From Dehalococcoidia bacterium (GTDB lineage: Bacteria > Chloroflexota > Dehalococcoidia > Dehalococcoidales > JAUVZA01), in the NCBI GenBank assembly GCA_030602805.1, contig JAUVZA010000003.1, forward strand, positions 1 to 43,795: a stretch of 43,795 bases of DNA, written 5' to 3'. The number at the start of each line of letters is the position of its first letter. The first letter of the stretch is position 1. Positions 15,822 through 30,967 of this stretch are shown here, piece by piece. The translations under genes were made by a program, and so were the position numbers. The notes under the pieces were generated by a model that ran no database searches, was not told the DNA's origin, and worked only from the letters and a program-made list of their open reading frames with translations.

Positions 15822-16673
15822 GTGGCTAGACCTCACAAACAGACAGTAGATTACTTCCCCCACGATACTGATGCCAGCGACGGTAAGACGCTAACTATTA
15901 TCCAATCCAAGTATGGCAATGATGGCTACGCCTTCTGGTTTAAGTTGCTCCAGTTACTCGGCAAAACACCGGGACATTTTTATGACTTCAATAAACCCGC
16001 TGACTGGGAGTTTCTGTTAGCAAAAACCCACCATAATGATACAGAAAAGGCCAAGGATATTCTGGAGACGCTTGTTGTGCTTGGTGCTATTGATGCCGAG
16101 CTCTACGCTCATGGCGTTATCTGGTGCCAGAAGTTCGTGGATAGGGTGGCAGATGCCTATGACCGGACTGTAAATGGTGCCCCCAAAAGACCTGGGTTTT
16201 TGGTTAATGTAGGAGATAAGAGTATTTCTGTACCAGATAATAATGTTTCTGCCAACAGAAACTCTAAAAATGCTACAGAAATACCACAAACTAAACTAAA
16301 GGAAACTAAACTAAAGGAAACTAGTGGTCCTTCTCATACAGAAAAAATTAACCAGGTTAGTGACCTTTCCGAGGATATGGCTGAAATAACCACTTTGTAT
16401 GAGGCTGAAATAGGGAAGATAACATCCTTCGTTGCCCAAGAGCTTAATGATGCTATGCAGAATTATCCGCCGAAGATGATAAAGGAAGCTATTAAGGGGG
16501 CAGTTAGGCAGAATAAGCACCAGTGGAGCTATGTCAAGGGTATATTAAAGAATTGGGGTAAAGAAGGATACCCTGAGGGCTCACCAAGTAAGAACGCCGG
16601 GGTGAATAGAATAAACAAGGATGATCCGAATAAATACATCAAGGGCAAGTATGGGCATATGGTCCGGCGCTGA
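15822..16673 (+). CDS. Replisome organizer: Lin1244/Lin1753-like N-terminus plus DnaD-like C-terminus
   Basis: VDYFPHDTDASDGKTLTIIQSKYGNDGYAFWFKLLQLL; C-terminal NYPPKMIKEAIKGAVRQNKHQWSYVKGILKNWGKEG. Confidence 0.8.
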   Translation: MARPHKQTVDYFPHDTDASDGKTLTIIQSKYGNDGYAFWFKLLQLLGKTPGHFYDFNKPADWEFLLAKTHHNDTEKAKDILETLVVLGAIDAELYAHGVIWCQKFVDRVADAYDRTVNGAPKRPGFLVNVGDKSISVPDNNVSANRNSKNATEIPQTKLKETKLKETSGPSHTEKINQVSDLSEDMAEITTLYEAEIGKITSFVAQELNDAMQNYPPKMIKEAIKGAVRQNKHQWSYVKGILKNWGKEGYPEGSPSKNAGVNRINKDDPNKYIKGKYGHMVRR

Positions 16674-16784
16674 TAGGGATGCCAAAATTGAAATAAGGAG
16701 GACGACCTTATGCCAGCGCAAAGAAAGGGGGGGGTTGGTGAGAAAAGGAGTGAGTTTGCTCGTTGAAGAGGGGAAGTAGGTAAG

Positions 16785-17483
16785 ATGAAAGCAGCCCTAT
16801 ACGCTAGAGTCTCAACAACAGACAAAGACCAAAACACAGAGGTCCAGCTATCGAAACTCCGGGACTACTGCCATGAGATGGATTGGATTGTTTACCGGGA
16901 GTATGTTGATGAAGCCTCGGCTGCTGACTTCTTGGGAAGAGTAGGCTGGAAACACCTGATGAAGGACGCCGCTCTACACAGGTTTGATGTGTTGCTCGTC
17001 TGGAAAATAGACCGTGCCTTCCGCTCCGTTATTCATGCCGCCAATACCCTAAGCATGTTAAGGGGTTACCGGGTGGGCTTTCGGAGTTACATGGAGCCAT
17101 CTATTGATACCACCACTCCCCATGGCGAATTTATCTTTAATATTATGGCGGCAGTGGCCGCACTGGGGAGGCAGACGATAAGTCAGCGAGTCCGGGCTGG
17201 GATGGACTATGCAAAGCGGCACGGAACCAAGTCGGGCAATAAGATTGGTCGGAAAAGATACGATGTGCCCTTTACAATCGTTTGTAAAGCCCTCCAGGCT
17301 TGCTGTGGCAATTATTCGGCAGCGGCAAGGCGGATATTTGAAGAGACCAGGATAAAAGTTAGCCCGGGGTTTGTGCAGACAAGGGTGCAGCGGGAGGATG
17401 AAACGCTGGAGGATATTTTGGGCCAGCCTTTGCAAAGCCTCGCCCCAAAATCGGGGCAAAAACAGCTAGCAAAGGAGGGCTGA
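16785..17483 (+). CDS. Serine recombinase (resolvase/invertase family)
   Basis: KAALYARVSTTDKDQNTEVQLSKLRDYC; FDVLLVWKIDRAFRS; FNIMAAVAALGRQTISQRVRAGMDYAKRHG. Confidence 0.92.
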   Translation: MKAALYARVSTTDKDQNTEVQLSKLRDYCHEMDWIVYREYVDEASAADFLGRVGWKHLMKDAALHRFDVLLVWKIDRAFRSVIHAANTLSMLRGYRVGFRSYMEPSIDTTTPHGEFIFNIMAAVAALGRQTISQRVRAGMDYAKRHGTKSGNKIGRKRYDVPFTIVCKALQACCGNYSAAARRIFEETRIKVSPGFVQTRVQREDETLEDILGQPLQSLAPKSGQKQLAKEG

Positions 17484-17597
17484 GGAAAGACGTTTGCAAA
17501 CCAGGTCTTTTGTGAAGAGGGAACTCGGAGCAAGTACGGCTGGACATATAAGGGAGAATTAAGACCAAAGAGGAAAGAGCGAGGATAAGGTTTCAAA

Positions 17598-18230
17598 ATG
17601 ACACAAGTTAGCCCGATACGCGACCTTAAAGGATACCTTGAACCCGAGCAGGTGGAGAGGGTGCTTGCCACTGCCACCAGTCCCAGGGACGCGCTGCTTG
17701 TCCGCATCCCGTGGCGAACCGGCATCAGGGTGTCAGAACTCATCGGGATAAGGGTTCAGGACATAGACTTCGAGGGCAGAGCTGTCTTGATTAAAATCCA
17801 AAAGCAGAGAAAGAGAGATGGCAAAACGGTCGAAAGAAGAAGGCTCGTCCCTATTGACCGGGACACCTTGGGCATGGTGAGGGAGTACCTGAAGTGGCGA
17901 GCGCAGTTTCCCTACAAGGGTGACCTTTTATTCCCCATTTCACGCCAAAGGGTTGCCCAAGTTTATTGGAAATTGGGAAGAAGAGCAGGGATAAAGGAGA
18001 TAGGTGACCCAGCAGTCTCCAAGCATAGGAAATTGCATCCGCATGTGCTTCGCCACAGCTTCGCCATCCACTGTGTGAAACATGGTATGTCAATTGAGCG
18101 ATTACAGAAAATCTTGGGGCACTCAAGCCCCACGACCACTTCAGTCTACTTGCAATACTCCTTGAAGGACCTCCATGAGTCCTATGACGAAGTTTGGGAA
18201 GAAGATGAAAGAGAAGAGACCAAGGATTAA
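17598..18230 (+). CDS. Tyrosine recombinase, catalytic domain only
   Basis: RTGIRVSELIGIRVQDID; HPHVLRHSFAIHCVKHGMSIERLQKILGHSSPTTTSVYLQYS (R, HxxR, H, Y); no N-terminal core-binding domain. Confidence 0.9.
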   Translation: MTQVSPIRDLKGYLEPEQVERVLATATSPRDALLVRIPWRTGIRVSELIGIRVQDIDFEGRAVLIKIQKQRKRDGKTVERRRLVPIDRDTLGMVREYLKWRAQFPYKGDLLFPISRQRVAQVYWKLGRRAGIKEIGDPAVSKHRKLHPHVLRHSFAIHCVKHGMSIERLQKILGHSSPTTTSVYLQYSLKDLHESYDEVWEEDEREETKD

Positions 18231-18893: not shown

Positions 18894-20063
18894 TCACACA
18901 TTGCCAATTTGTTTTTTCAGCCTATCCGCCATTAGACCTATATTTAGATCAGGCACCCCTAACCGACCAAAATACCGAGTAAAACGAGCGATCAGCGCTT
19001 CAGCATAAGGGCTATCTAAAGATGCAATGCGTTCTAATTTTCCCTGCTCTTTTAGCGAATTGAATTCGTCTAAAGTAATAGCCATTAGTTGTTGAAAGTC
19101 AACGACCATATCCGGCAGGTCTATTACGCCTGGGAGAAACTTAAATCTTTCTGGTTGCTTGCCTTCTCTGTTGTCATTTAGTAGGCTCTTGATTTTTCCT
19201 TTCGCTTTTTGATCCCCTGGATTTTGTGCCAATTCAACATATTCTGGTTGTTCACTTAGGAGCGAACAACGAGCAAATAACATCCACTCCGCTTTCCCCT
19301 TGTCGATGTCACATGACGGCGTCAGCAAGACGGTATATTCAATTTGGTCATCAATTGTCTTGGAAAATATATCACCTGTCGTAGGCTCTGCGCTTATCGA
19401 TGGAATTATGTAATACATCATTGGATGCACATTATCTTCGCCGCACCAAACTCCCGTTGTGTCGCCTAATTCTTCTGCTAATTGTTGTATTCCCGGACCA
19501 TCTAAAGATTTTGCTAGTCGCCTCGCCAGCAAATAGGCAAGTGAGGTGCGGTCAGGGGTGTCACCGAATTTCTCCCAATTGCGAGCTACAAAGTCCCACA
19601 TGTAGTCACGCTGTACTTCCTTCACGTGTCTTAAAAGTGCTCGATTCACTAGCGGTATTCTAGTTGAGAGAATTTCCTTTACTATCGATACAACTTTTGG
19701 TAATCCTTCCGTATTTTCAAGAACTTGTATTAACGGTGTTTCCAAATGTCTGACCTTTTGCGGTAGACCAGTGTAGAATATAACAGGTATAAAACATCTG
19801 GCTTTGATCGATTCAAGTACTTTTATGCCTTCCTCTTCTTCTCGTTCTTCTTCATGTGGTCCAAGTCTTACATCTAAAACGACAAAGTCAAAGTGACCGG
19901 ATTCCAATCTATCCAATGCCTTATCAAAGTCAACTTCTGTAGTGACTCTCAATTTCTCACCCGGCTCTGAAACAACTTGTTCATTCAGGTATTTGTCCGC
20001 CAGCTCACAGTTCTCAGCATTATCGTCAACAAATAACAGATACCAGTAATTTTCTTCCGCCAC
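18894..20063 (-). CDS. Receiver-domain protein with unknown C-terminal domain
   Basis: YWYLLFVDDNAENCELADKYL; HFDFVVLDVRLGPHEEEREEEEGIKVLESIKARCFIPVIFYTG; C-terminal EYTVLLTPSCDIDKGKAEWMLFARCSLL. Confidence 0.8.
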   Translation of the reverse strand: MAEENYWYLLFVDDNAENCELADKYLNEQVVSEPGEKLRVTTEVDFDKALDRLESGHFDFVVLDVRLGPHEEEREEEEGIKVLESIKARCFIPVIFYTGLPQKVRHLETPLIQVLENTEGLPKVVSIVKEILSTRIPLVNRALLRHVKEVQRDYMWDFVARNWEKFGDTPDRTSLAYLLARRLAKSLDGPGIQQLAEELGDTTGVWCGEDNVHPMMYYIIPSISAEPTTGDIFSKTIDDQIEYTVLLTPSCDIDKGKAEWMLFARCSLLSEQPEYVELAQNPGDQKAKGKIKSLLNDNREGKQPERFKFLPGVIDLPDMVVDFQQLMAITLDEFNSLKEQGKLERIASLDSPYAEALIARFTRYFGRLGVPDLNIGLMADRLKKQIGNV

Positions 20064-20064
20064 T

Positions 20065-22236
20065 TCATATTCTCCTGCGAAGAATAATCCTAAATGTTGT
20101 TCCAGGTAATGGGCCTTCTTTTATCAATGCCATAGTTCCGTCATAATAATCGCTAACTATTTCTCCGGCAATTGTCAATCCCAACCCGATTCCATTGGGC
20201 TTGGTTGAGAAATATGGATCAAAAATCATATCTTGATATTCTTCTTCAATGCCAGGCCCACTGTCTGAAAAAATTATCTCCAGTTCATATTCTTCTTTCC
20301 TGTTTATCTTAACGGTGATGAATCTTGAATCCTTCGGAACCTGCTTAAGCCAGTAAAGACTGTTGTTCAATAAGTTAACAATAACTTCTTGTATTTCAGC
20401 CTGATCTACAGTCACCTCTGTATATGTCGATGGCAGATCGACTTCTGCTCCCACCTGTTCAATTTCTTTTTCTAATACGGAGAAAGCGTTATAAATTACA
20501 TTCTCTAATGATATCCTCTCAGGTCTCCCGCGCCGGCGACCCCCAAAGGGTTCTATTTTACGGAATAGCGTCGCCAGTACGTCTGACTGAGTTGATATTG
20601 CTTTGAAGTGACCCCTCAATTGCCTTACTATTTTCTTACCGTTCTCATATATTTGATTAATATCTTGCCTTGCTACATGTGTAACATTAATAATCTTAGA
20701 AAGAGGTAATCGACCCTCGTGAAGCACAGTATCAATCAACATACCAAGAGTTGCCAACCTCCGATATCTAGAGATAATCTCTTCTGCTTCCCCAACCCTT
20801 TTTTCTAAATCTTTTTCCTTTTTCTTTACCGCGTCTAAGAGTTCTGTATCTCTGGGATGCTTTGTCGTTACGTATTCCCTAATGCTTGCCAGATTAAAGT
20901 CTACGAAGAGACCCCTCTCTGCCATTTTCTTTTTCTTAGGTCTTTCCTGCCATCTTCTGTTTTCCAATAACGCGATCATTAACGTGACCAGATATTTGAA
21001 ATCCTCGAATGCTTCCCCTTCCATAAGGCCTTCTCTGTTGCTCTGGTCACGTAATAATGGATTATCTTTAGATGTAACAAATATAGAACCAATTATTTGG
21101 TTATTAGAGAGATTTCTTGTAGGACGTAGAAAACGCCTGTAATCAAGTCGTAGCCAGTCTTCACGTGGTTGCCCGTATGGCAATACTCTAAAACCATCCC
21201 GGTATATACTTATTCCTGATGCAAAATCTAGATAGCGACGTATCTCAGCAACGGTGAATTCATTTCCTGACACTGCGTTCAAAGATGCTATATCGCGGTT
21301 CCAGACACGAAGCTCTATTTCAAAAGGACCACATTTTGGCAACCTCCCATCACCCATGGAGAAATGCCCCTCTTTTTTCTCTTCTATCCCCTTTTCCCTG
21401 AATTGCAGTGATAGATTATAATTACCTTTCGCGTCTACCTCTCCCCTTAATATGTAATGGGGTCTCTTGACTATTTCTGGTGGTTTAATTGTTTCAGAAT
21501 ATTCTTGAAAAGCTTCAGGCAGTTTTAGAAATATTTGAAAATCTTCCTTTAACGTATAATCCAATTCACCGAATGATGGTGAGATTAGTCTTGACAATCC
21601 ATTCTGTAAACTTTCAAATTGTGGTTTACCCCAGGCCGTCTTTAGCCCTCGCATTCTTAATATAGTACCGTAATCTAATTCATTCTTATCCAACTTCTTT
21701 GATTTATCCCATAATCCCTCAATAACACCACCGGGATATATTTCCTTTGGTTTACTCTGTTCCCACATAACCTCTATCTGGTCAAGGAATTTTTCTTCAT
21801 CATCAAACTGATTCCAATCGAATGTGACCCTTGTTTCACTATCCGTGCCAGATCGTCTGGTTATTACTTCCAGTTTTTCAGCTAATCTTGATGAAGCAAA
21901 TCTGCCGATTCCTTTTTCACCAAGTACACGGCGACTGAACTTCTCACTAAACCTGCTCCTTTTCCTCATTAATGTTGCTGGTTCCATCCAGGTTGTTCTG
22001 ATAGTTTCTAAATCCATACCATGGCCGTTGTCTATTACCTCTATCATACCCTTACCGATTTCAAGAGGCTCATGAAAGTAGACCCAGACTCGTGTGGCAT
22101 CTGCGTCATACGCGTTTTTAACTAGCTCAATTACGGCGACTGTCTCACTACTGATAAGTTCATCGCCAAAAGTACGTAAGAGCCTCGCCCTCGGCCTTAA
22201 TTTACTTACCCCTGAACCCTTTTCTATATCTGCCAT
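20065..22236 (-). CDS. Dual-ATPase protein: N-terminal MORC/HSP90-type ATPase plus C-terminal histidine-kinase core
   Basis: N-term AVIELVKNAYDADATRVWVYF, IEVIDNGHGMD, LGEKGIGRFASSRLA; C-term LGMLIDTVLHEGRLPLSKI, VIVNLLNNSLYWL, IIFSDSGPGIEEEYQDMIFDPYFSTKPNGIGLGLTIAGEIV. Confidence 0.88.
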   Translation of the reverse strand: MADIEKGSGVSKLRPRARLLRTFGDELISSETVAVIELVKNAYDADATRVWVYFHEPLEIGKGMIEVIDNGHGMDLETIRTTWMEPATLMRKRSRFSEKFSRRVLGEKGIGRFASSRLAEKLEVITRRSGTDSETRVTFDWNQFDDEEKFLDQIEVMWEQSKPKEIYPGGVIEGLWDKSKKLDKNELDYGTILRMRGLKTAWGKPQFESLQNGLSRLISPSFGELDYTLKEDFQIFLKLPEAFQEYSETIKPPEIVKRPHYILRGEVDAKGNYNLSLQFREKGIEEKKEGHFSMGDGRLPKCGPFEIELRVWNRDIASLNAVSGNEFTVAEIRRYLDFASGISIYRDGFRVLPYGQPREDWLRLDYRRFLRPTRNLSNNQIIGSIFVTSKDNPLLRDQSNREGLMEGEAFEDFKYLVTLMIALLENRRWQERPKKKKMAERGLFVDFNLASIREYVTTKHPRDTELLDAVKKKEKDLEKRVGEAEEIISRYRRLATLGMLIDTVLHEGRLPLSKIINVTHVARQDINQIYENGKKIVRQLRGHFKAISTQSDVLATLFRKIEPFGGRRRGRPERISLENVIYNAFSVLEKEIEQVGAEVDLPSTYTEVTVDQAEIQEVIVNLLNNSLYWLKQVPKDSRFITVKINRKEEYELEIIFSDSGPGIEEEYQDMIFDPYFSTKPNGIGLGLTIAGEIVSDYYDGTMALIKEGPLPGTTFRIILRRRI

Positions 22237-22271: not shown

Positions 22272-22922
22272 TTATCTTTCAGTATTGTATGAACAAATAT
22301 TACTTAAAGGACATTCATTACATTTTGGCTCTTCTTTTTTTGTACATACCTGATCGGCCAAATCTAGAAGTGCAGAATTATAAACCCCTGGTTCCTCAGG
22401 ATCAACGAGTTCAGCTGCCAGTTCTTTGAATTTAGAATTACGCCTTAAAGAATCTTTTATTTCCATGTTATATATGCGACCAATTACCCTTACCGTATTT
22501 GTGTCTCTCAAAGGTTCTGCCATATTCCATGCAAAGCATCTAACACTACACGCGATATAATCGCTAATACCTGGTAGAGACAACAGCTCACTCTTATCCT
22601 TAGGAATTTTAGATCCATACTTATTTACGAGCATCTCTGCCATATCCTTGATAAGGTTAACACGCCATTTAAGACCCAGTGTAAATAATCCCTTATGCAA
22701 TTCAGATTTGCTGGCTCTTGCTAGGGTCTTTATGTCAGGATATTTTCTAATAAAACTTTCGTATATTCTAGCTACCTGTACAGCCTGTGTACGGTGTAGC
22801 ATTATCTCTGCCAATAGAACTTTATAGGGTTCCTGAGTCCTCCTCCATGGGAAGTCGCGGTAATTTCCTCTCCCCCATTTCTTGACCTTCGTCCGATATT
22901 CCCCTATCTTTGTCGCATCCAT
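22272..22922 (-). CDS. HhH-GPD Fe-S DNA glycosylase, Mig-like (T:G mismatch thymine glycosylase candidate)
   Basis: RDFPWRRTQEPYKVLLAEIMLHRTQA, LPGISDYIACSV, DTNTVRVIGRIY, Cys cluster CTKKEEPKCNECPLSNIC. Confidence 0.85.
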   Translation of the reverse strand: MDATKIGEYRTKVKKWGRGNYRDFPWRRTQEPYKVLLAEIMLHRTQAVQVARIYESFIRKYPDIKTLARASKSELHKGLFTLGLKWRVNLIKDMAEMLVNKYGSKIPKDKSELLSLPGISDYIACSVRCFAWNMAEPLRDTNTVRVIGRIYNMEIKDSLRRNSKFKELAAELVDPEEPGVYNSALLDLADQVCTKKEEPKCNECPLSNICSYNTER

Positions 22923-22923
22923 G

Positions 22924-23880
22924 TTATCGATCCACTTTACTAATTGCTCTAACTATAGATTTCATTACTGGCGGACAAACCGCATTTCCCATTAGCTTCA
23001 CTTTTTCCCGTCGTGTACCTACCTCCAATCGGTACGTTGTAGGGAAACCCATAGCTACTTTTAATTCTTCCGGTTGAAGCATCCTCATCATATAACCCAT
23101 ATCAGTGGGTTTTACAAACGCAAATCTATCAATAGTGGTAACAGTTCTAAGAGGCCTATCAATGGGTTGCCATCCTCCACTCCCATCCGTACCATAGTAA
23201 ACAATCAAGAATGATTCTTCTGCTCCTAGAGAACTGATAGCCCTTTCTGCACGTTGAATTGTGGCTACAGCTCTTTTCGGAGAATACAGAGGCGTATAGC
23301 CATAATTACCATTTAGGTCGATAATTGAACAGGCCGGTTGTAACTCTTTTCTTTGTTTCTTCACGCAACCGATCTCCCCTATCCGTGAACAGAGTAAAAA
23401 AAGCCTTCTTCTTGATTGTGGCACACCAAAGTCTTGAGCATTTAATATCTCTTCCCGCACATAGTAGCCTAAATTCTGTAGCTCTTCTACCAGTTCCCAG
23501 TGTCTATCCCATGACCTCATTTGTATTACGTTTTCAATAACAACCCATCTGGGCATAAATTCCTTGGTGAATCTTATTACTTGAAATGCCGTCATTTTAC
23601 TATTTTCACATCTGGCACGTGCACCTCTTGCACAACTATGATTTGTGCATTCCGGCGAAGCAAGTATTAGATCAATATCTCCAATAACTTCATGAAGCCT
23701 CTTTGGAGATATCTTTCTGATATTCTCATTAATCATTTCCGTTCCAGGGAAATTTCTAGAATAGGATAAAGACGCGATATTCCAATTATCAATTGCGGCG
23801 ACTATTTTAGCGCCAGCCATTTTTGCCCCGATACTACTCCCGCCGGCACCATGAAATAAATCCAGAGCCCTAATCCTCAT
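22924..23880 (-). CDS. DNA (cytosine-5) methyltransferase with PEC catalytic motif
   Basis: ALDLFHGAGGSSIGAKMAG (motif I), LASPECTNHS (IV), VVIENV (VI), DFGVPQSRRRLFLL (VIII), LMGNAVCPPV (X). Confidence 0.93.
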   Translation of the reverse strand: MRIRALDLFHGAGGSSIGAKMAGAKIVAAIDNWNIASLSYSRNFPGTEMINENIRKISPKRLHEVIGDIDLILASPECTNHSCARGARARCENSKMTAFQVIRFTKEFMPRWVVIENVIQMRSWDRHWELVEELQNLGYYVREEILNAQDFGVPQSRRRLFLLCSRIGEIGCVKKQRKELQPACSIIDLNGNYGYTPLYSPKRAVATIQRAERAISSLGAEESFLIVYYGTDGSGGWQPIDRPLRTVTTIDRFAFVKPTDMGYMMRMLQPEELKVAMGFPTTYRLEVGTRREKVKLMGNAVCPPVMKSIVRAISKVDR

Positions 23881-24406
23881 AAGACGGTTCCTTATTGAAG
23901 ATCAATTCTGCCATTTCTAAATTCTTTTTGCTTAGCGGCAAATACCAAGCATTCATCCTTCTATCCCATGCCCTTATCCTGACAAAGTCACCCCAAGGAT
24001 ATCTATAAATGGCGAATAACCGGTAATTTGCATCTAGCTTGGCCACGACGAGGTATTCGAATAATTGTTTATCCCTATCCTTTTCGTCCGGATAGACTGT
24101 CCCGGTCTTTTTCGCTTTCATAACGGTTTTTATCGAATATCTCTCCCCATCCCTCGACAGTGCATCAACATTCTTTGCACCAACTGGTGCTTGAAGCAGA
24201 TTCGGCAGTCCAGGTTTTGAATTGAAGAACGATATCACGAGCTTTTCACCAACTTCTCCCACCTTAAACAAGATACCACGCCTATTCAATTCTGTTTCTA
24301 TGTTAGCTCTTAAGATCACCAATTCATCGTTATTTAACTTTCTTAGATCAGCAAATGGGCCTCTGTTCATTTCTCTATCACTGCTACTTCTAAATTTAAT
24401 GGCCAT
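23870..24406 (-). CDS. Putative restriction endonuclease (PD-(D/E)XK-like)
   Basis: GEVGEKLVISFFNSK...GAKNVDALSRDGERYSIKTVMKAKKTGT resembles E...VDA...xIK; start at M24 of the 24475 ORF overlaps the HTH stop. Confidence 0.65.
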   Translation of the reverse strand: MAIKFRSSSDREMNRGPFADLRKLNNDELVILRANIETELNRRGILFKVGEVGEKLVISFFNSKPGLPNLLQAPVGAKNVDALSRDGERYSIKTVMKAKKTGTVYPDEKDRDKQLFEYLVVAKLDANYRLFAIYRYPWGDFVRIRAWDRRMNAWYLPLSKKNLEMAELIFNKEPSYED

Positions 24407-24650
24407 GTGGATTAGCTTCTTGGCTGCTTCTGGCTGTATCCCCCGTAAGCTCGTAGTGCCATCCATGATCGTCATGCACTGAGCGAATCTTATAACCGCG
24501 TCGTTTTAGTTCCGCAACAATACGTTGCGCCGTTGGACGTGACACATCTAAAGCAATCGCAAGCTTTCGTGTATTCATAGGACTGCTAGCAATCAGCTCA
24601 CCTGCTTTGCTAATACGTTGTTCGATGCGATGAGTGCGTTCGTATGGCAT
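24396..24650 (-). CDS. HTH regulator, first gene of the RM-like operon
   Basis: RIEQRISKAGELIASSPMNTRKLAIALDVSRPTAQRIVAELKRRGYKIRSV. Confidence 0.75.
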   Translation of the reverse strand: MPYERTHRIEQRISKAGELIASSPMNTRKLAIALDVSRPTAQRIVAELKRRGYKIRSVHDDHGWHYELTGDTARSSQEANPHGH

Positions 24651-24907
24651 CCTTTTTTGCCCTCATACTTTTGACACAATTATAACCAGAATCATTGATA
24701 TATGTCAATCAACTTGTGATATAATTTACTCAATTAGCGATGGGGTTTTGGTCAGTTATAAGAAAGCGACCTACTTTATAGGGTGCCTTTCTTTTTTAAA
24801 CTTAAATCGCACAAAATGACGGAATGTTACCCTCCTTGTTCTCATTCTAATCCGGCTGATGTATAATATGACTGACTCGATAAAGTAGCGAAGGCTGGGA
24901 AGCACAC

Positions 24908-26821
24908 ATGGCAAAAGGAAAGCAGGGAGGCTTGGGTGACGAGCTGTTAGGCACAAGATTCGGTGAGTTGCGTGATGCCTCCGGTCCAACTAAAGGTGAA
25001 TTTGTCCCACCACCTGATGTATCCAGCACAGAGGAAATAGAAGAAGCTCTTCCTGAGCAAGAAGAGTTCTGGCGCCCCCCAGCTCGTTTTGGAACAGTAC
25101 CCGTAGAAGCAAACCCGTTGGGCTGGGATTCACGCCGTGGATATTATAAGCTATACCCACAAGTAATGCTGCCTACTCAGGTTGTGGAGCGTGTTAGCTT
25201 TGGACATCCTGCGCTAGAGCCTAACCGCCTCTTCTGGGGAGACAACCTTCATGTAATGCGCCAACTTCCCTCCCAAAGTATTGACCTCATCTATATAGAC
25301 CCTCCATTCTTCTCCGGTATGCAATATAATGTTATTTTCGGCGACCAGAATGAGTTACGTTCTTTTAGTGATATTTGGGAAGGGGGGATGCCAGGTTATC
25401 TAATCTGGCTGAATGCCAGACTATATGAAATGAAACGTCTGTTGAAGAAAACCGGTTCCATCTATATCCATCTAGATTGGCACGCCTCCCATTACGTTAA
25501 GCAAGAGATGGATAAAATATTCGGATATGGCAATTTTAGAAATGAGGTTGTGTGGACATACACTAGACCCGGAACAGCAGCACAGAAGCAGTTGCCCAGA
25601 ACACATGATGTTATTCTTTGGTATTCGAAAAGCAACGTATGGAAGTTTAACACCCAGCATATACGCATTCCGTATGCGGATTCGACCGTATCCAGGGGAC
25701 AATACTCTATTGCTACGAGTAAAGTCACTAAGGGCATCGAAAAGAGGGTACTGAATGAGAAGGGCAAAGTTCCGGAAGATTGGTGGCATATTCCGATGAT
25801 ACAAGGCAATGCAAGGGAGCGGCTTGGTTACCCTACTCAGAAACCAGAGGCTCTACTTGAAAGAATCATTCACGCATCATCAGAAGAAGGGCACGTCATT
25901 GCTGACTTTTTCTGTGGTGGAGGCACGACTCCTGCGGTAGCTCAAAGATTGGGCCGCCACTGGATAGCTTGTGACCAGTCCCGTGTTGCAGTCGCCATTA
26001 CTGCTGACAGGATATCCGGTATAGTTGAACAGATGCCTCTAGAGCAGGCCGGTAAGACATTTACCGTCCCAGACTTCACCGTTGAGCACTGGGGCATATA
26101 CGAAGCAAAGCGGCTCTCGGAGACCCCGCCAGACCAGTTTCGTCAATTCGTCCTTCGCGCCTATGGAGCAGTGCCTGATAACTCCGAGCTAGGCATCCAC
26201 GGGCATAAGGGTGCTATCCCAGTATGGGTTGGCGAGCCTTCTCAGAAATCGCAGGTTTCCGCGCAAGATGTAGTGAACTTTGCTAACGCCGTGCGTAAGA
26301 CGGTTCGCTACCAACAGGATAATCTCCGTGACGGCACTATGCTTGCTTGGGCCTTCCGCCCCGATGCAATGCAGGCAGCACAGCAACTCCGTGAACAGGA
26401 AGCCACCGACCTGAACTTTATCCGCCTTGATATGGTTCGTATTGACTCCCCCACGTTCCGTGAACATGTCAACGTTCTCTCCACTGACAAGGCGGACTAT
26501 AGCACCTTTCTGACATTCGTACTGCCACCGAGAGTTGAGGTTGGCTGGAAAAAGCTGACCGGGCTAACGTACCGCTTTGATGTAAGCGAAACTATTGTGC
26601 TGAATGCTGGTAGCAAAATAATCAATGTCCAGTGGGACTTCAACTACCAGGGTGTATTCACCAGTACCCAGGGCTTTTCTTTCATTCGCACTACTTCGAA
26701 AGAGCCTACCCTACAGGTTGATTATACTTTCCCAACGTCAGGACGCTATCACATCGCCTGTAAAGTGCAGGATGATGTTGGGGGTGAGGGGTTATGGACA
26801 GGGTATATAGAGGTCAAGTAG
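24908..26821 (+). CDS. Type III-like N6-adenine DNA methyltransferase with extended C-terminus including a PKD-like domain
   Basis: LIYIDPPFFSGMQYN (DPPF), DFFCGGGTTPAVAQRLGRHWIACD; C-term KIINVQWDFNYQG...YTFPTSGRYHIACKVQDDVGGEGLWTGYIEV. Confidence 0.9.
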   Translation: MAKGKQGGLGDELLGTRFGELRDASGPTKGEFVPPPDVSSTEEIEEALPEQEEFWRPPARFGTVPVEANPLGWDSRRGYYKLYPQVMLPTQVVERVSFGHPALEPNRLFWGDNLHVMRQLPSQSIDLIYIDPPFFSGMQYNVIFGDQNELRSFSDIWEGGMPGYLIWLNARLYEMKRLLKKTGSIYIHLDWHASHYVKQEMDKIFGYGNFRNEVVWTYTRPGTAAQKQLPRTHDVILWYSKSNVWKFNTQHIRIPYADSTVSRGQYSIATSKVTKGIEKRVLNEKGKVPEDWWHIPMIQGNARERLGYPTQKPEALLERIIHASSEEGHVIADFFCGGGTTPAVAQRLGRHWIACDQSRVAVAITADRISGIVEQMPLEQAGKTFTVPDFTVEHWGIYEAKRLSETPPDQFRQFVLRAYGAVPDNSELGIHGHKGAIPVWVGEPSQKSQVSAQDVVNFANAVRKTVRYQQDNLRDGTMLAWAFRPDAMQAAQQLREQEATDLNFIRLDMVRIDSPTFREHVNVLSTDKADYSTFLTFVLPPRVEVGWKKLTGLTYRFDVSETIVLNAGSKIINVQWDFNYQGVFTSTQGFSFIRTTSKEPTLQVDYTFPTSGRYHIACKVQDDVGGEGLWTGYIEVK

Positions 26822-26824
26822 CCA

Positions 26825-28846
26825 ATGTTCAACGAATTTGCCAGATATGAAGAAGATTTCAAGGCGTGGTGCCAGGACGGTTACCCTACCGACTTTGCCA
26901 CCACATATCGCTACATTGATTTCCTCAGTGACCCAACTAATGACCAAGCACCGCGAGAGGGCACCTTATGGCTCCATCAGTGGGAGGCCTTCCTCAGAGT
27001 TGTTTATTCCTATGAGGTGTTGGGGAAGAAGACTATTGGAGAGCATGGTCTGCTGCTGAACATTGTGACCGGTGGTGGTAAAACAGCAGACATTGCTGCC
27101 ATTATAGCCTGGTTACGCATCTCTCATGGGGGGCAAAAATTTCTAATGCTTTGCCCCAATCTCATCGTGCGCGACCGCTTAGAAGAAGATTTTGAAAAAG
27201 GTAAGGTATTCAAAGACCGAGACCTGTTGCCAGATTGGTCAAATGCTCGACCCCAGGATTTTGATCTGACTACTCTTGGTGGCGGCAAAAGCAGTGGTTG
27301 GGCAAGTTTCTTGGGTGCCAGTATAGTTCTTGGCAATATCCATCAGTTCTACCAAAGCAATATAGCAGGTAGGAGTAATTTGTCAGCGCTTATGAATGGG
27401 CCAGATTTTGTCCTGTTCAACGATGAAGCCCACAATTCCCCAGCGGAAGAGTACACAACCACACTGCAGCGTATCGAAAAGAAGGTGTTGCTACGTATAG
27501 ACACTACGGCTACACCCGACCGTGCTGATGGTAGAGCCCCTGACAGCGACATGATCTACGAATATGACGTCAATGATGCCTTGGCAGATGGTCTTATCGC
27601 GACGCCGGTAGTTTATCAGCCAGACATCAAGACTGTAGAGCTCACCTATACCGATGCCCTGACTGGAGTCACTAAAAGAGTCGAAGAGATTGATTGGGAG
27701 GAGGTCGATCGCAAGGGTCTCAGTGCTACACAGTGGGTAACCGATGACAAACCAATGCGTCAGCAGATGGCAATCGCCCTTAAGCGTCTTCAAGAGCAGG
27801 AGATGAGGGCAAAGGGGCGTTACCAACCCATCCTGTTCGTCGTTGCCGTATGCAAGAAGGATGCGATAAAAGCGGAAAATACACTCTCCAAAATCTTTAA
27901 GGTCAAAACATTGCTAGTGACTGAGGACAGCCCCGAAGTGGATAGAAAGAGTGCACGTGAGTTGGGGCGTCAGCAGAAGACAAAAGACCCATTTAAGGCA
28001 GTAGTTAGCGTCCTTATGTTACGGGAAGGCTGGGACGTTCCAGAGGTGGGCGTTATCCTGCTCCTTCGTAAATTTAGCAGTAAGGTATACGGCCAACAAG
28101 TTGTTGGGCGTGGGCTGCGCCGAGTTCGTACCAAAGGCATATTACCTGAAGAGCCACAGATTTGTGCCGTCGTTGATCACCCCAAGCTGGAGCATTACTG
28201 GTTATGGGATATTTTTAATTGTAAGATCCGTCCAAATGTTACTACGGAGCAGATGTTTGACGAGGCTGAAGATTTACCACCACCGCCACCACGACAGGAT
28301 ATTTCTCGTCCCGAGTTTGTGATTGATGTTCCGAAAGAAATTGAAGGGCTTGTCGATGAAGGTGAATTTGAAGTGGGCGAGATTGAGCTAACCGAGCCCA
28401 TTGAGAATTGGGAAGAAGTACTTGCATCTCTTGAGTATAGTGGAGAGACAGTCGAGATAACCGACCAAAAAATTACAGGAGTTACCGGCAAGGAGTTAAT
28501 CCCCAAGGGGTGGAAGACAATTCACAGTGCCCCGGACTTGCCGCCGAAAGACAATGGTACACAAGTAGAAGATACTGATGATAACATGCGGGAAGCCATA
28601 AAGAACCGGGTACTGGAGCTTGCTGAGGAACTGTGTGTTAATTCCGGTTATGCTGCGGGTTTTCGTGGTGAAGTGTACAGTGCTCTGATGCAGCACGTCA
28701 GGGGAAAATTCCTTGACAACATGACTCTAGGTCTAGCTGACCGGCGTGGTCTCGATTATGCCTGGAAGATGTTGTACCAAGTGAAAGTTAAGGTTACTGC
28801 AGTACCGGGACTTGTCGGAGGGATAATAGAATATGCCAATAAGTAA
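26825..28846 (+). CDS. DEAD/DEAH-box helicase, Type III Res-like, no recognisable nuclease domain
   Basis: LLLNIVTGGGKTADIAAI (Walker A), VLFNDEAHNSP, RIDTTATPDR, VVSVLMLREGWDVPEVGVILLLR, GQQVVGRGLRRV. Confidence 0.9.
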   Translation: MFNEFARYEEDFKAWCQDGYPTDFATTYRYIDFLSDPTNDQAPREGTLWLHQWEAFLRVVYSYEVLGKKTIGEHGLLLNIVTGGGKTADIAAIIAWLRISHGGQKFLMLCPNLIVRDRLEEDFEKGKVFKDRDLLPDWSNARPQDFDLTTLGGGKSSGWASFLGASIVLGNIHQFYQSNIAGRSNLSALMNGPDFVLFNDEAHNSPAEEYTTTLQRIEKKVLLRIDTTATPDRADGRAPDSDMIYEYDVNDALADGLIATPVVYQPDIKTVELTYTDALTGVTKRVEEIDWEEVDRKGLSATQWVTDDKPMRQQMAIALKRLQEQEMRAKGRYQPILFVVAVCKKDAIKAENTLSKIFKVKTLLVTEDSPEVDRKSARELGRQQKTKDPFKAVVSVLMLREGWDVPEVGVILLLRKFSSKVYGQQVVGRGLRRVRTKGILPEEPQICAVVDHPKLEHYWLWDIFNCKIRPNVTTEQMFDEAEDLPPPPPRQDISRPEFVIDVPKEIEGLVDEGEFEVGEIELTEPIENWEEVLASLEYSGETVEITDQKITGVTGKELIPKGWKTIHSAPDLPPKDNGTQVEDTDDNMREAIKNRVLELAEELCVNSGYAAGFRGEVYSALMQHVRGKFLDNMTLGLADRRGLDYAWKMLYQVKVKVTAVPGLVGGIIEYANK

Positions 28847-29183
28847 ACACGACATCTACTGGGAACCTAAAAAGAGCCCGTATAATTTTGAAAAATATGA
28901 TAGTAGACTTGAATCTTGGATGATGGAGAAACTCGATGATGACCCTACAGTGGTAAAATGGATGAAGAGACATGGGATTAGCATCCCCTGGATTGATGTG
29001 CAGAAACATCAACGCCGCTATGTGCCTGATTTCATTGTTGAATATATTGACGGTAACAAATCAATTCTCGAAGTAAAAGACCCTAGTAGAGTAGATTCTG
29101 ATGAAGTGAAGCGGAAGAGGAAAGCTGCTGAGATGTGGTGTAAAAAACGGGGAATGTCATATGTTGTTGCCACAGTGGAGTAA
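28833..29183 (+). CDS. Small PD-(D/E)XK nuclease
   Basis: 116 aa; HQRRYVPDFIVEYIDGNKSILEVKDPSR; overlaps the helicase by 14 nt. Confidence 0.8.
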   Translation: MPISKHDIYWEPKKSPYNFEKYDSRLESWMMEKLDDDPTVVKWMKRHGISIPWIDVQKHQRRYVPDFIVEYIDGNKSILEVKDPSRVDSDEVKRKRKAAEMWCKKRGMSYVVATVE

Positions 29184-29300: not shown

Positions 29301-29915
29301 TTAGGGCTCCAATGCTTCGAAGAGAGTATGTCCCCTTAGGCTATTATAAAGTGCGCTGACTTCCTTGTTGATGGTTCTATTCTCCTTATCCAGTGCTTTC
29401 TTTTGTCCGTAGAGCCACAGATATTTGTCGAGGTCCTCCCAGGGTACGGAAGCAAGTCCTACCTGATCGCGGAATGCCTTGATAGCCTCAAAAAACTTCG
29501 TGTAGCTAGGAAAACTGAATCCGCGCTTTTGTAGCTGTGCCATAGCAGCCACAGCAAATGAGTCGAATATGGGGAAAGCAGTCTTATTATGAAAGTGAGC
29601 ATATTTACTGGCGAAGGAAATATAATAATGGTCATCCTTAGCTATGAGTTCAACTGCTTCTACTTCCCCTGCCATTAGTTGTGCATCAAGCCTGTGTAAC
29701 GCCAGTATATGCCTCGCCATTCGTAACGGCTCTCTGATACCGGCAAAATAAAGGCTGTTTACCAGAACCACCTTAGTAACCACACTGTACTCTTTCATGT
29801 TGTCTGGGTGGTCTTGGAGATAGGAGGCTATGACCTCATTTGCCAGCTTCCAGCCACCAAGCCTTTCATAGAGTTGTTTTGCCGCCTTGATGTTTCGTAG
29901 CCCGGGTGGTGTCAT
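29301..29915 (-). CDS. Hypothetical protein paired with the PGN_0703-like nuclease
   Basis: 204 aa; YYISFASKYAHFHNKTAFPIFDSFAV; start overlaps the stop of the upstream gene by 4 nt. Confidence 0.6.
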   Translation of the reverse strand: MTPPGLRNIKAAKQLYERLGGWKLANEVIASYLQDHPDNMKEYSVVTKVVLVNSLYFAGIREPLRMARHILALHRLDAQLMAGEVEAVELIAKDDHYYISFASKYAHFHNKTAFPIFDSFAVAAMAQLQKRGFSFPSYTKFFEAIKAFRDQVGLASVPWEDLDKYLWLYGQKKALDKENRTINKEVSALYNSLRGHTLFEALEP

Positions 29916-30967
29916 TGACTCTCTCTCCTTCCTTGTTGAAAGAGTTCCCTAACAGGTTTACCTCTGCTTACCTCCTTCCAGCCGTACCGTGTCCTGAGGT
30001 AGTCTATCCACTCCCAGTTGTTGGCCTCTACCCGCTGTGCGATGATATCAAGTAGGTCCTCGACTGAGATGCTCATAAACTTGTCTTTGGGCACCAGCTC
30101 TTTCCAGATTTCGAGCACACCTTTGTTGGGGAACATCTGGTCCAACTTAGGTGAAGTTACCCGCTCTCTGAATTCCTTATTAGCCTCGGGACAGATATAA
30201 AGCACACTCACCACATCAGCTCCCATCTCCTGACCATATTCCATTTCTTGGGCAAGCAATTGAAGGCGCATGAGTTGATAGAACGGATCAAAGAATAGGG
30301 CATCATAAAAATCTACGTCCCGTCGCTTGAAGACCCCGCCCTCCCTGTTGAAAGCCTGCTGATAGTTATGTTTCCTGACCTCAATGCCCTTATCTAATCT
30401 GCGATATTCTTCCGTATATTTCCATTCTCCAAGGACTATTTGTATTTTCCCATCCTTTCTTCTAAACCGGAAGATAAAGTCAGCACTGGTAAAATTTGCT
30501 CCCCGAGTTCGTTTTGATCCTTTGCGCCTGGTTTCGCCCAGATAGTCGCGAACACCAATCCACTCGAAAGCCAAATACTGAAATGAACCATTCGGAGGAG
30601 GTTTATCTTCATCGATTAGAAGCGGCTCTGCCAGACTCCGATAGAAATGTTGGAAGACATTAGCAAGTATCTTTGAGCTGGTTGTCATTGGGTATAGGAA
30701 ATTTATACAGCATGACTGAGAACAGCATAGGTGATTACTGGGTACGTGCCGTTCTTTGAGACCATCGTGCCAAGTGATATTTCGAGCCCTAAAGTACTCA
30801 ATTGCAGATGCCCTGATGGCTTCGTAAAGATTTTCGCTAGAACAGTCATCAGCAAGACAAAAGGAGTGGGGCCGCCCACGATAGTTACCTTCGCCTTGGG
30901 CTGCAGGGCTAAACAGCTTCGGCTTAAGCTTCTTGTATCTCTCCTTTTCTCTATCTCTAAAGGTCAT
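29912..30967 (-). CDS. Putative restriction endonuclease, PGN_0703-like
   Basis: CCSQSCCINFLYP; FTSADFIFRFRRKDGKIQIVLGEWKYTEEY (ADFIF ... GEWK nuclease-like motif). Confidence 0.65.
   Translation of the reverse strand: MTFRDREKERYKKLKPKLFSPAAQGEGNYRGRPHSFCLADDCSSENLYEAIRASAIEYFRARNITWHDGLKERHVPSNHLCCSQSCCINFLYPMTTSSKILANVFQHFYRSLAEPLLIDEDKPPPNGSFQYLAFEWIGVRDYLGETRRKGSKRTRGANFTSADFIFRFRRKDGKIQIVLGEWKYTEEYRRLDKGIEVRKHNYQQAFNREGGVFKRRDVDFYDALFFDPFYQLMRLQLLAQEMEYGQEMGADVVSVLYICPEANKEFRERVTSPKLDQMFPNKGVLEIWKELVPKDKFMSISVEDLLDIIAQRVEANNWEWIDYLRTRYGWKEVSRGKPVRELFQQGRRESQ

Follow-up and report, generated by a model that had tools for sequence, protein, structure and literature searches.

Soluble sensor kinases with two ATPase domains in a single chain were described by Bellieny-Rabelo et al. 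(2021; PMC8011034), whose HEF_HK and Response_reg_2 families (PF19191 and PF19192) combine the two-HATPase architecture and a DHp domain with an adjacent regulator and with linkage to C5 methyltransferases and Vsr. Extending earlier work on paraMORC proteins by Iyer et al. (2008; PMC2292703), that study speculates that the signaling controls restriction-modification (R-M) systems and that the N-terminal ATPase senses nucleotide pools; its main text contains no MazF, PemK, glycosylase, or EcoRII-N fusion, with EcoRII appearing only as a neighboring nuclease. In the literature we found no experiment on this kinase-regulator system and no REC-MazF protein.

The locus analyzed here lies in a stretch of 43,795 nucleotides (the window) from a Dehalococcoidia bacterium, whose genome is a draft assembly of 1.5 Mb in 104 contigs. 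It is a compact six-gene minus-strand operon with the following features, in the order of transcription:

24679..24708, minus strand: perfect consensus promoter before the operon, TTGACA-18-TATAAT (12/12 match)
24396..24650, minus strand: winged-helix (wHTH) regulator, the first operon gene (HTH families, Pfam)
23870..24475, minus strand: putative restriction endonuclease (REase), 201 aa (PADLOC mREase_II, 1.5e-49; no Pfam match)
22924..23880, minus strand: C5-cytosine DNA methyltransferase (Pfam DNA_methylase, 2.2e-44; DrmMII model, 9.3e-101)
22272..22922, minus strand: HhH-GPD (MutY/Nth-like) DNA glycosylase (family matches)
20065..22236, minus strand: soluble sensor kinase, 723 aa, with the architecture GHKL(1)-S5-like-coiled coil-DHp-GHKL(2) (Pfam, AlphaFold2, Foldseek, homologue conservation)
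18894..20063, minus strand: partner response regulator, 389 aa, starting 1 nt after the kinase stop

The last two genes share with the HEF_HK/Response_reg_2 systems the presence of HATPase_c_3, DHp, and HATPase_c in one soluble protein, together with an adjacent divergent response regulator, a C5 methyltransferase, and a mismatch-repair gene, the window having a glycosylase where those systems have Vsr. From what is known of its family, the glycosylase probably repairs T:G mismatches arising from deaminated 5-methylcytosine, which would fit the role that Vsr has elsewhere. The window kinase shows no match to PF19191 at E<=0.1, and the regulator matches not PF19192 but, weakly, the ordinary Response_reg model; neither family was detected anywhere else in the window genome. 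Hence the window proteins form a divergent branch. As hmmscan recovers PF19191 in only 1 of 51 kinase homologues and PF19192 in only 2 of 111 regulator homologues, the system as a whole is much wider than these models. The kinase architecture and the R-M link are thus already known from 2021, a precedent that the initial annotation of this stretch, made from the letters alone, had missed; what is new is the predicted MazF/PemK-fold output, the EcoRII-N kinase fusions, and how broad the family is. We propose, with a probability of about 0.5, that the pair constitutes a phosphorelay that senses DNA and acts through an effector of MazF fold, within a type II-like R-M operon; in this scheme the transfer of phosphate, the sensing of DNA, and the activity of the effector are inferred.

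Several further systems surround the operon. Adjoining it at 15822-18230 on the plus strand are a phage-type replication protein (Lin1244_N/DnaB_2), a serine resolvase, and a tyrosine integrase, on account of which the island looks mobile. Divergent from it, at 24908-29183 on the plus strand, is a type III-like R-M set comprising an N6/N4 methyltransferase and a ResIII helicase that lacks a nuclease end; a separate small TnsA-like nuclease (28833-29183, plus strand; 9.1e-13) in the same set looks as if the restriction subunit had been split. This is followed at 29301-30967 on the minus strand by a restriction endonuclease of the REase-ARP/PDDEXK type (PF22558, 1.9e-37), whose 204-aa partner belongs to no known family.

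The domains of the kinase are delineated as follows:

21790..22146, minus strand: N-terminal MORC/MutL-type GHKL ATPase, residues 31-149 (Pfam, ATP-site conservation, Foldseek)
21076..21537, minus strand: middle S5-like beta-rich domain, residues 234-387 (AlphaFold2 model, MORC2 alignment; extent from predicted secondary structure)
20545..20847, minus strand: DHp helices, residues 464-564, with the candidate phospho-His506 at codon 20719-20721 (H506 conservation, AlphaFold2 helices)
20074..20406, minus strand: C-terminal histidine-kinase ATPase, residues 611-721, with N, G1, and G2 boxes (Pfam, conservation, HK853 fold match)

The 723-aa reading frame and every motif quoted for it in the initial annotation are present, and the central proposition made there, that one chain carries two complete GHKL ATP sites, of which the N-terminal one is of the MORC type, is borne out by independent lines of evidence. 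Pfam recovers HATPase_c_3 in residues 32-149 (E=3.9e-23) and HATPase_c in residues 611-721 (E=4.1e-25). The C-terminal part matches the AtoS, ZraS, and FixL kinases among the NCBIfam models (residues 476-721) and, in sequence comparisons, the solved structures of HK853, FixL, and ZraS (residues 477-719), while the N-terminal half yields weak sequence matches to MutL and MORC2. The AlphaFold2 model of the monomer (pLDDT 81) contains two GHKL folds, not one: a first GHKL domain, an S5-like middle domain, a long helical pair bearing His506 (helices 464-527 and 533-564), and the second ATPase. In Foldseek searches HK853 matched one half of the protein (TM 0.61-0.75 normalized to the target, over ~250 columns), and the other half was matched by SMCHD1 or DNA-bound MORC2 (TM 0.38-0.50, ~470 columns). 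The second ATPase is accordingly no chance motif, an explanation ruled out by Pfam, fold, and conservation. The highest 19-residue hydropathy is 0.88, so that a transmembrane segment is lacking and the kinase is cytoplasmic, as had been supposed.

Residues of both ATP sites and of the H-box are conserved across phyla. In a set of 155 full-length homologues, E37, N41, D69, G71, G73, G106, G109, and G111 are each present in 155/155, the conservation of the first five being partly built in because the N-terminal GHKL motifs belonged to the search pattern. The G2 box, the H-box, and the C-terminal ATP site lay outside that pattern, and here N625 is retained in 148/155, D658 in 142/155, and G684 in 147 homologues. 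His506 is kept in 147 of 149, with a Glu or Asp adjoining in 146, so that the H-box suspected earlier is not degenerate across the family; with H, N, G1, and G2 boxes and a conserved His and Asn, the homologues have the hallmarks of histidine kinases. Kinases of the HisKA type (HK853, ZraS, FixL) likewise possess a DHp with the conserved His-Glu/Asp, the N/G1/G2 boxes, and the same fold, but the window protein uses a second GHKL ATPase as its sensor and is devoid of PAS, HAMP, or membrane parts. The succession of GHKL motifs and an S5-like domain (from Pfam and the predicted model) is that of the paraMORC/MORC ATPases. The paraMORC proteins also reside in R-M neighborhoods and often bear an extra C-terminal domain (PMC2292703), this being a nuclease or TIR in their case and a histidine kinase, partnered by a response regulator, in the window.

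The family is widespread and patchy. Among the best 80 of 497 kinase relatives in the genome scan, identity reaches 54% in Caldilineaceae, 53% in Anaerolineales, and 48-49% in Armatimonadetes and Verrucomicrobia, and one or more archaeal genomes (Methanoperedens) also have the pair. Of 100 relatives from the same order, just two yielded a clear match to the N-terminal half, a distribution that suggests horizontal spread. Conjugative Campylobacter plasmids encode full-length kinase relatives at 30% identity, with a response regulator and a convergently oriented C5 methyltransferase immediately after them, and in a scan of viral contigs (best 80 of 93 kept) the pair was also recovered on viral or prophage contigs.

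The gene that abuts the kinase is usually a response regulator. Of 167 loci with a full-length kinase, 153 have the following gene on the kinase strand and no more than 60 nt away (median gap -4), and the phospho-acceptor Asp64 is invariant in all 111 kinase-adjacent regulators, which upholds the earlier choice of the downstream protein as the partner. The AlphaFold2 model of the window regulator (pLDDT 91.6, pTM 0.85) divides into two domains:

19668..20048, minus strand: receiver (REC) domain, phospho-acceptor Asp64 (codon 19872-19874), Asn117 in place of the canonical Lys (Pfam, REC folds, conservation)
18951..19424, minus strand: output domain of predicted MazF/PemK-like fold, residues 214-371, with P249-x-C251-D252 and R367-x-G369 (AlphaFold2, Foldseek, conservation)

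The Pfam match of the first domain to Response_reg (1.8e-4) falls below the curated cut-off, and against the PDB Foldseek assigns the N-terminus to receiver-domain folds. The acid pocket D13/D14, Asp64, and T98 are all present in the window copy; in homologues, Asp14 is retained in at least 90% and position 98 holds T or S in 88/88. At the site of the conserved lysine in strand 5, 70/88 homologues have K and 11/88 have R; the Asn117 of the window copy (19713-19715, minus strand) counts against a phosphorelay; because of it the window regulator may be slower or altered.

The output domain was overlooked in the initial annotation. Within the first 50 PDB matches of the regulator, those to this C-terminal domain are MazF structures (5cr2, E 1.1e-4, TM 0.64; 1ub4, TM 0.68; 5ck9, TM 0.65), and in the BFVD library of viral predicted structures a PemK/MazF toxin ranks second (E 2.8e-4, TM 0.67), with more PemK-like proteins below it. 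Apart from REC folds, no family but MazF/PemK stands out for the output domain in the two structure libraries. At the sequence level, Pfam reports no PF02452 in the regulator, alignment to 30 MazF relatives with hhalign is not significant (probability 2%), and the output-domain profile retrieves from PDB sequences no MazF chain and no match at all. Thus, the predicted domain resembles MazF/PemK toxins in fold but differs in lacking a Pfam match and the catalytic Arg and Thr, whose equivalent positions 242 and 266, mapped by strand order and not by coordinates, vary, and in being fused to a receiver. In their place it has a conserved Cys-Asp and an Arg-x-Gly constellation: C251 is retained in 85/88 regulator homologues, R367 in 84, G369 in 83, D252 in 77, and P249 in 76. 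While the predicted fold assignment is good, RNase function is doubtful, and the activity may be absent as the catalytic positions are not conserved. No MazE-like antitoxin was recognized among the operon genes in the ORF list and Pfam matches. The output-domain profile also had matches in 15 of 400 genomes from the phylum; three are full regulators of this type, and the remainder are mostly standalone proteins of ~190 aa that share the Cys-Asp and Arg-x-Gly-x-Pro signature, which indicates that the domain is an independent module. Some of these standalone proteins (L214, L221, L223) apparently belong to a recurrent three-gene cluster with proteins of ~265 aa and ~130-156 aa, possibly another unrecognized defense cassette.

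The association with R-M systems is strong: DNA methyltransferases account for 58 of the 241 genes within three positions of the kinase versus 3 of the 275 that lie five or more positions away (P=9e-18). The neighbors include 48 C5 methyltransferases (31+17, the window's own included), Vsr (8+10), HhH-GPD proteins (2+4), and single cases each of HaeIII, HpaII, and MvaI/BcnI endonucleases, this variety implying that the pair accompanies several unrelated R-M systems. The REase of the window was not found beside homologous kinases and hence lies outside the conserved core. Given the carriage by plasmids and prophages and the presence of methyltransferases with different restriction enzymes, the pair looks like a general add-on.

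The computation shows the domain make-up, the conserved residues, the pairing of the two genes, their linkage to methyltransferases, and the predicted fold of the output; beyond this we envisage the following course of events. The N-terminal GHKL and S5 module, MORC/MutL-like, would be the input, an ATP-gated dimer that would close and most likely engages DNA; the kinase would then transfer phosphate to the regulator. The latter has no HTH or other DNA-binding output (Pfam, AlphaFold2 model). Its MazF/PemK-like end with the new conserved Cys-Asp/Arg-x-Gly site is proposed as the effector, which would stop growth or attack nucleic acid once foreign or unmodified DNA is sensed or methylation fails. 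A bolder version, which we consider less likely than not, is that a MORC-gated, DNA-reading kinase phosphorylates the regulator and thereby switches a MazF-fold toxin whose active site would be a new one of Cys-Asp/Arg type, serving as an abortive-infection or anti-loss arm on many unrelated R-M systems, in bacteria and in one or more archaeal genomes (Methanoperedens, L075). A kinase and response regulator with an effector output are also the components of the Detocs anti-phage two-component system; the present pair has a GHKL sensor and is located in R-M operons. If true, the scheme would unite MORC/MutL-type DNA clamps, two-component signaling, and restriction-modification in what would amount to a signaling circuit guarding against foreign DNA, and a MazF-like output with a DNA-binding input would render the question of the 2021 paper, what is sensed and what is done, directly testable.

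As to the input, the initial annotation proposed a clamp-like DNA-sensing ATPase that drives a kinase. This interpretation is partly supported: methyltransferase linkage and fusions to DNA-binding domains lend weight to DNA as the probable input, with a putative clamp, a putative kinase reaction, and a possible dependence on methylation state. The best evidence for DNA as the input is the EcoRII-N (B3-like) domains at the N-termini of two homologous kinases, L067 (1692-4277; 2.8e-16) and L063 (647-3253; 2.8e-13, with B3 at 2.6e-6), a third case, L041 (6843-10226), being weak; that such a domain is clear in only two homologues and absent from the window kinase counts against DNA sensing, while the presence of MORC2 with DNA among the best fold matches counts for it. 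The alternative that the N-terminal ATPase senses nucleotide pools, the published speculation of PMC8011034, is favored by an ATP site in the sensor position, but the two fusions and the methyltransferase linkage argue against it and we consider it improbable. DNA is also the substrate on which relatives of this ATPase (MORC, MutL, and topoisomerase) work, which likewise speaks against it.

As regards the output, the main rival is that the pair only tunes the expression or activity of the R-M enzymes, for instance while a new host is being colonized; the output domain would then be a protein- or RNA-binding adaptor and not a toxin. The constant methyltransferase linkage, the missing MazF catalytic residues, the wHTH gene at the head of the operon, and the speculation in PMC8011034 on control of R-M systems all fit this idea; we nevertheless deem it unlikely, since the regulator has no DNA-binding output, the invariant Cys and conserved Arg resemble a working site, and the pair rides mobile elements in the company of unrelated R-M systems. 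Still less probable, and the least so of all, is that the pair is itself the restriction arm, its GHKL module functioning as in paraMORC restriction enzymes and the regulator domain as a DNA nuclease subunit. The N-terminal similarity to BbrUII/HgiDII (NF050001, 3.2e-18; PADLOC REase_II, 5.2e-14) prompts this thought, but it is limited to the GHKL domain and at 65.6 bits is far from the NF050001 cut-off of 550, so that the kinase was rejected as an enzyme of that kind. Moreover, neither protein has a nuclease motif, a candidate REase is already present in the operon, HaeIII or HpaII enzymes occur at some loci, and the H-box would stay unexplained.

Among the homologous loci, two (L021:7137-9059 and L026:5781-7715) encode near the kinase pair a C5 methyltransferase fused to an HhH-GPD glycosylase in one chain, thereby uniting modification and mismatch repair in a single protein. 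Three others (L040, L049, L082) display a recurrent cassette in which a methyltransferase is followed by proteins of 358 aa and ~544 aa, the kinase, and the regulator, the ~544-aa proteins probably being the HerA-type helicases of the neighbor tally.
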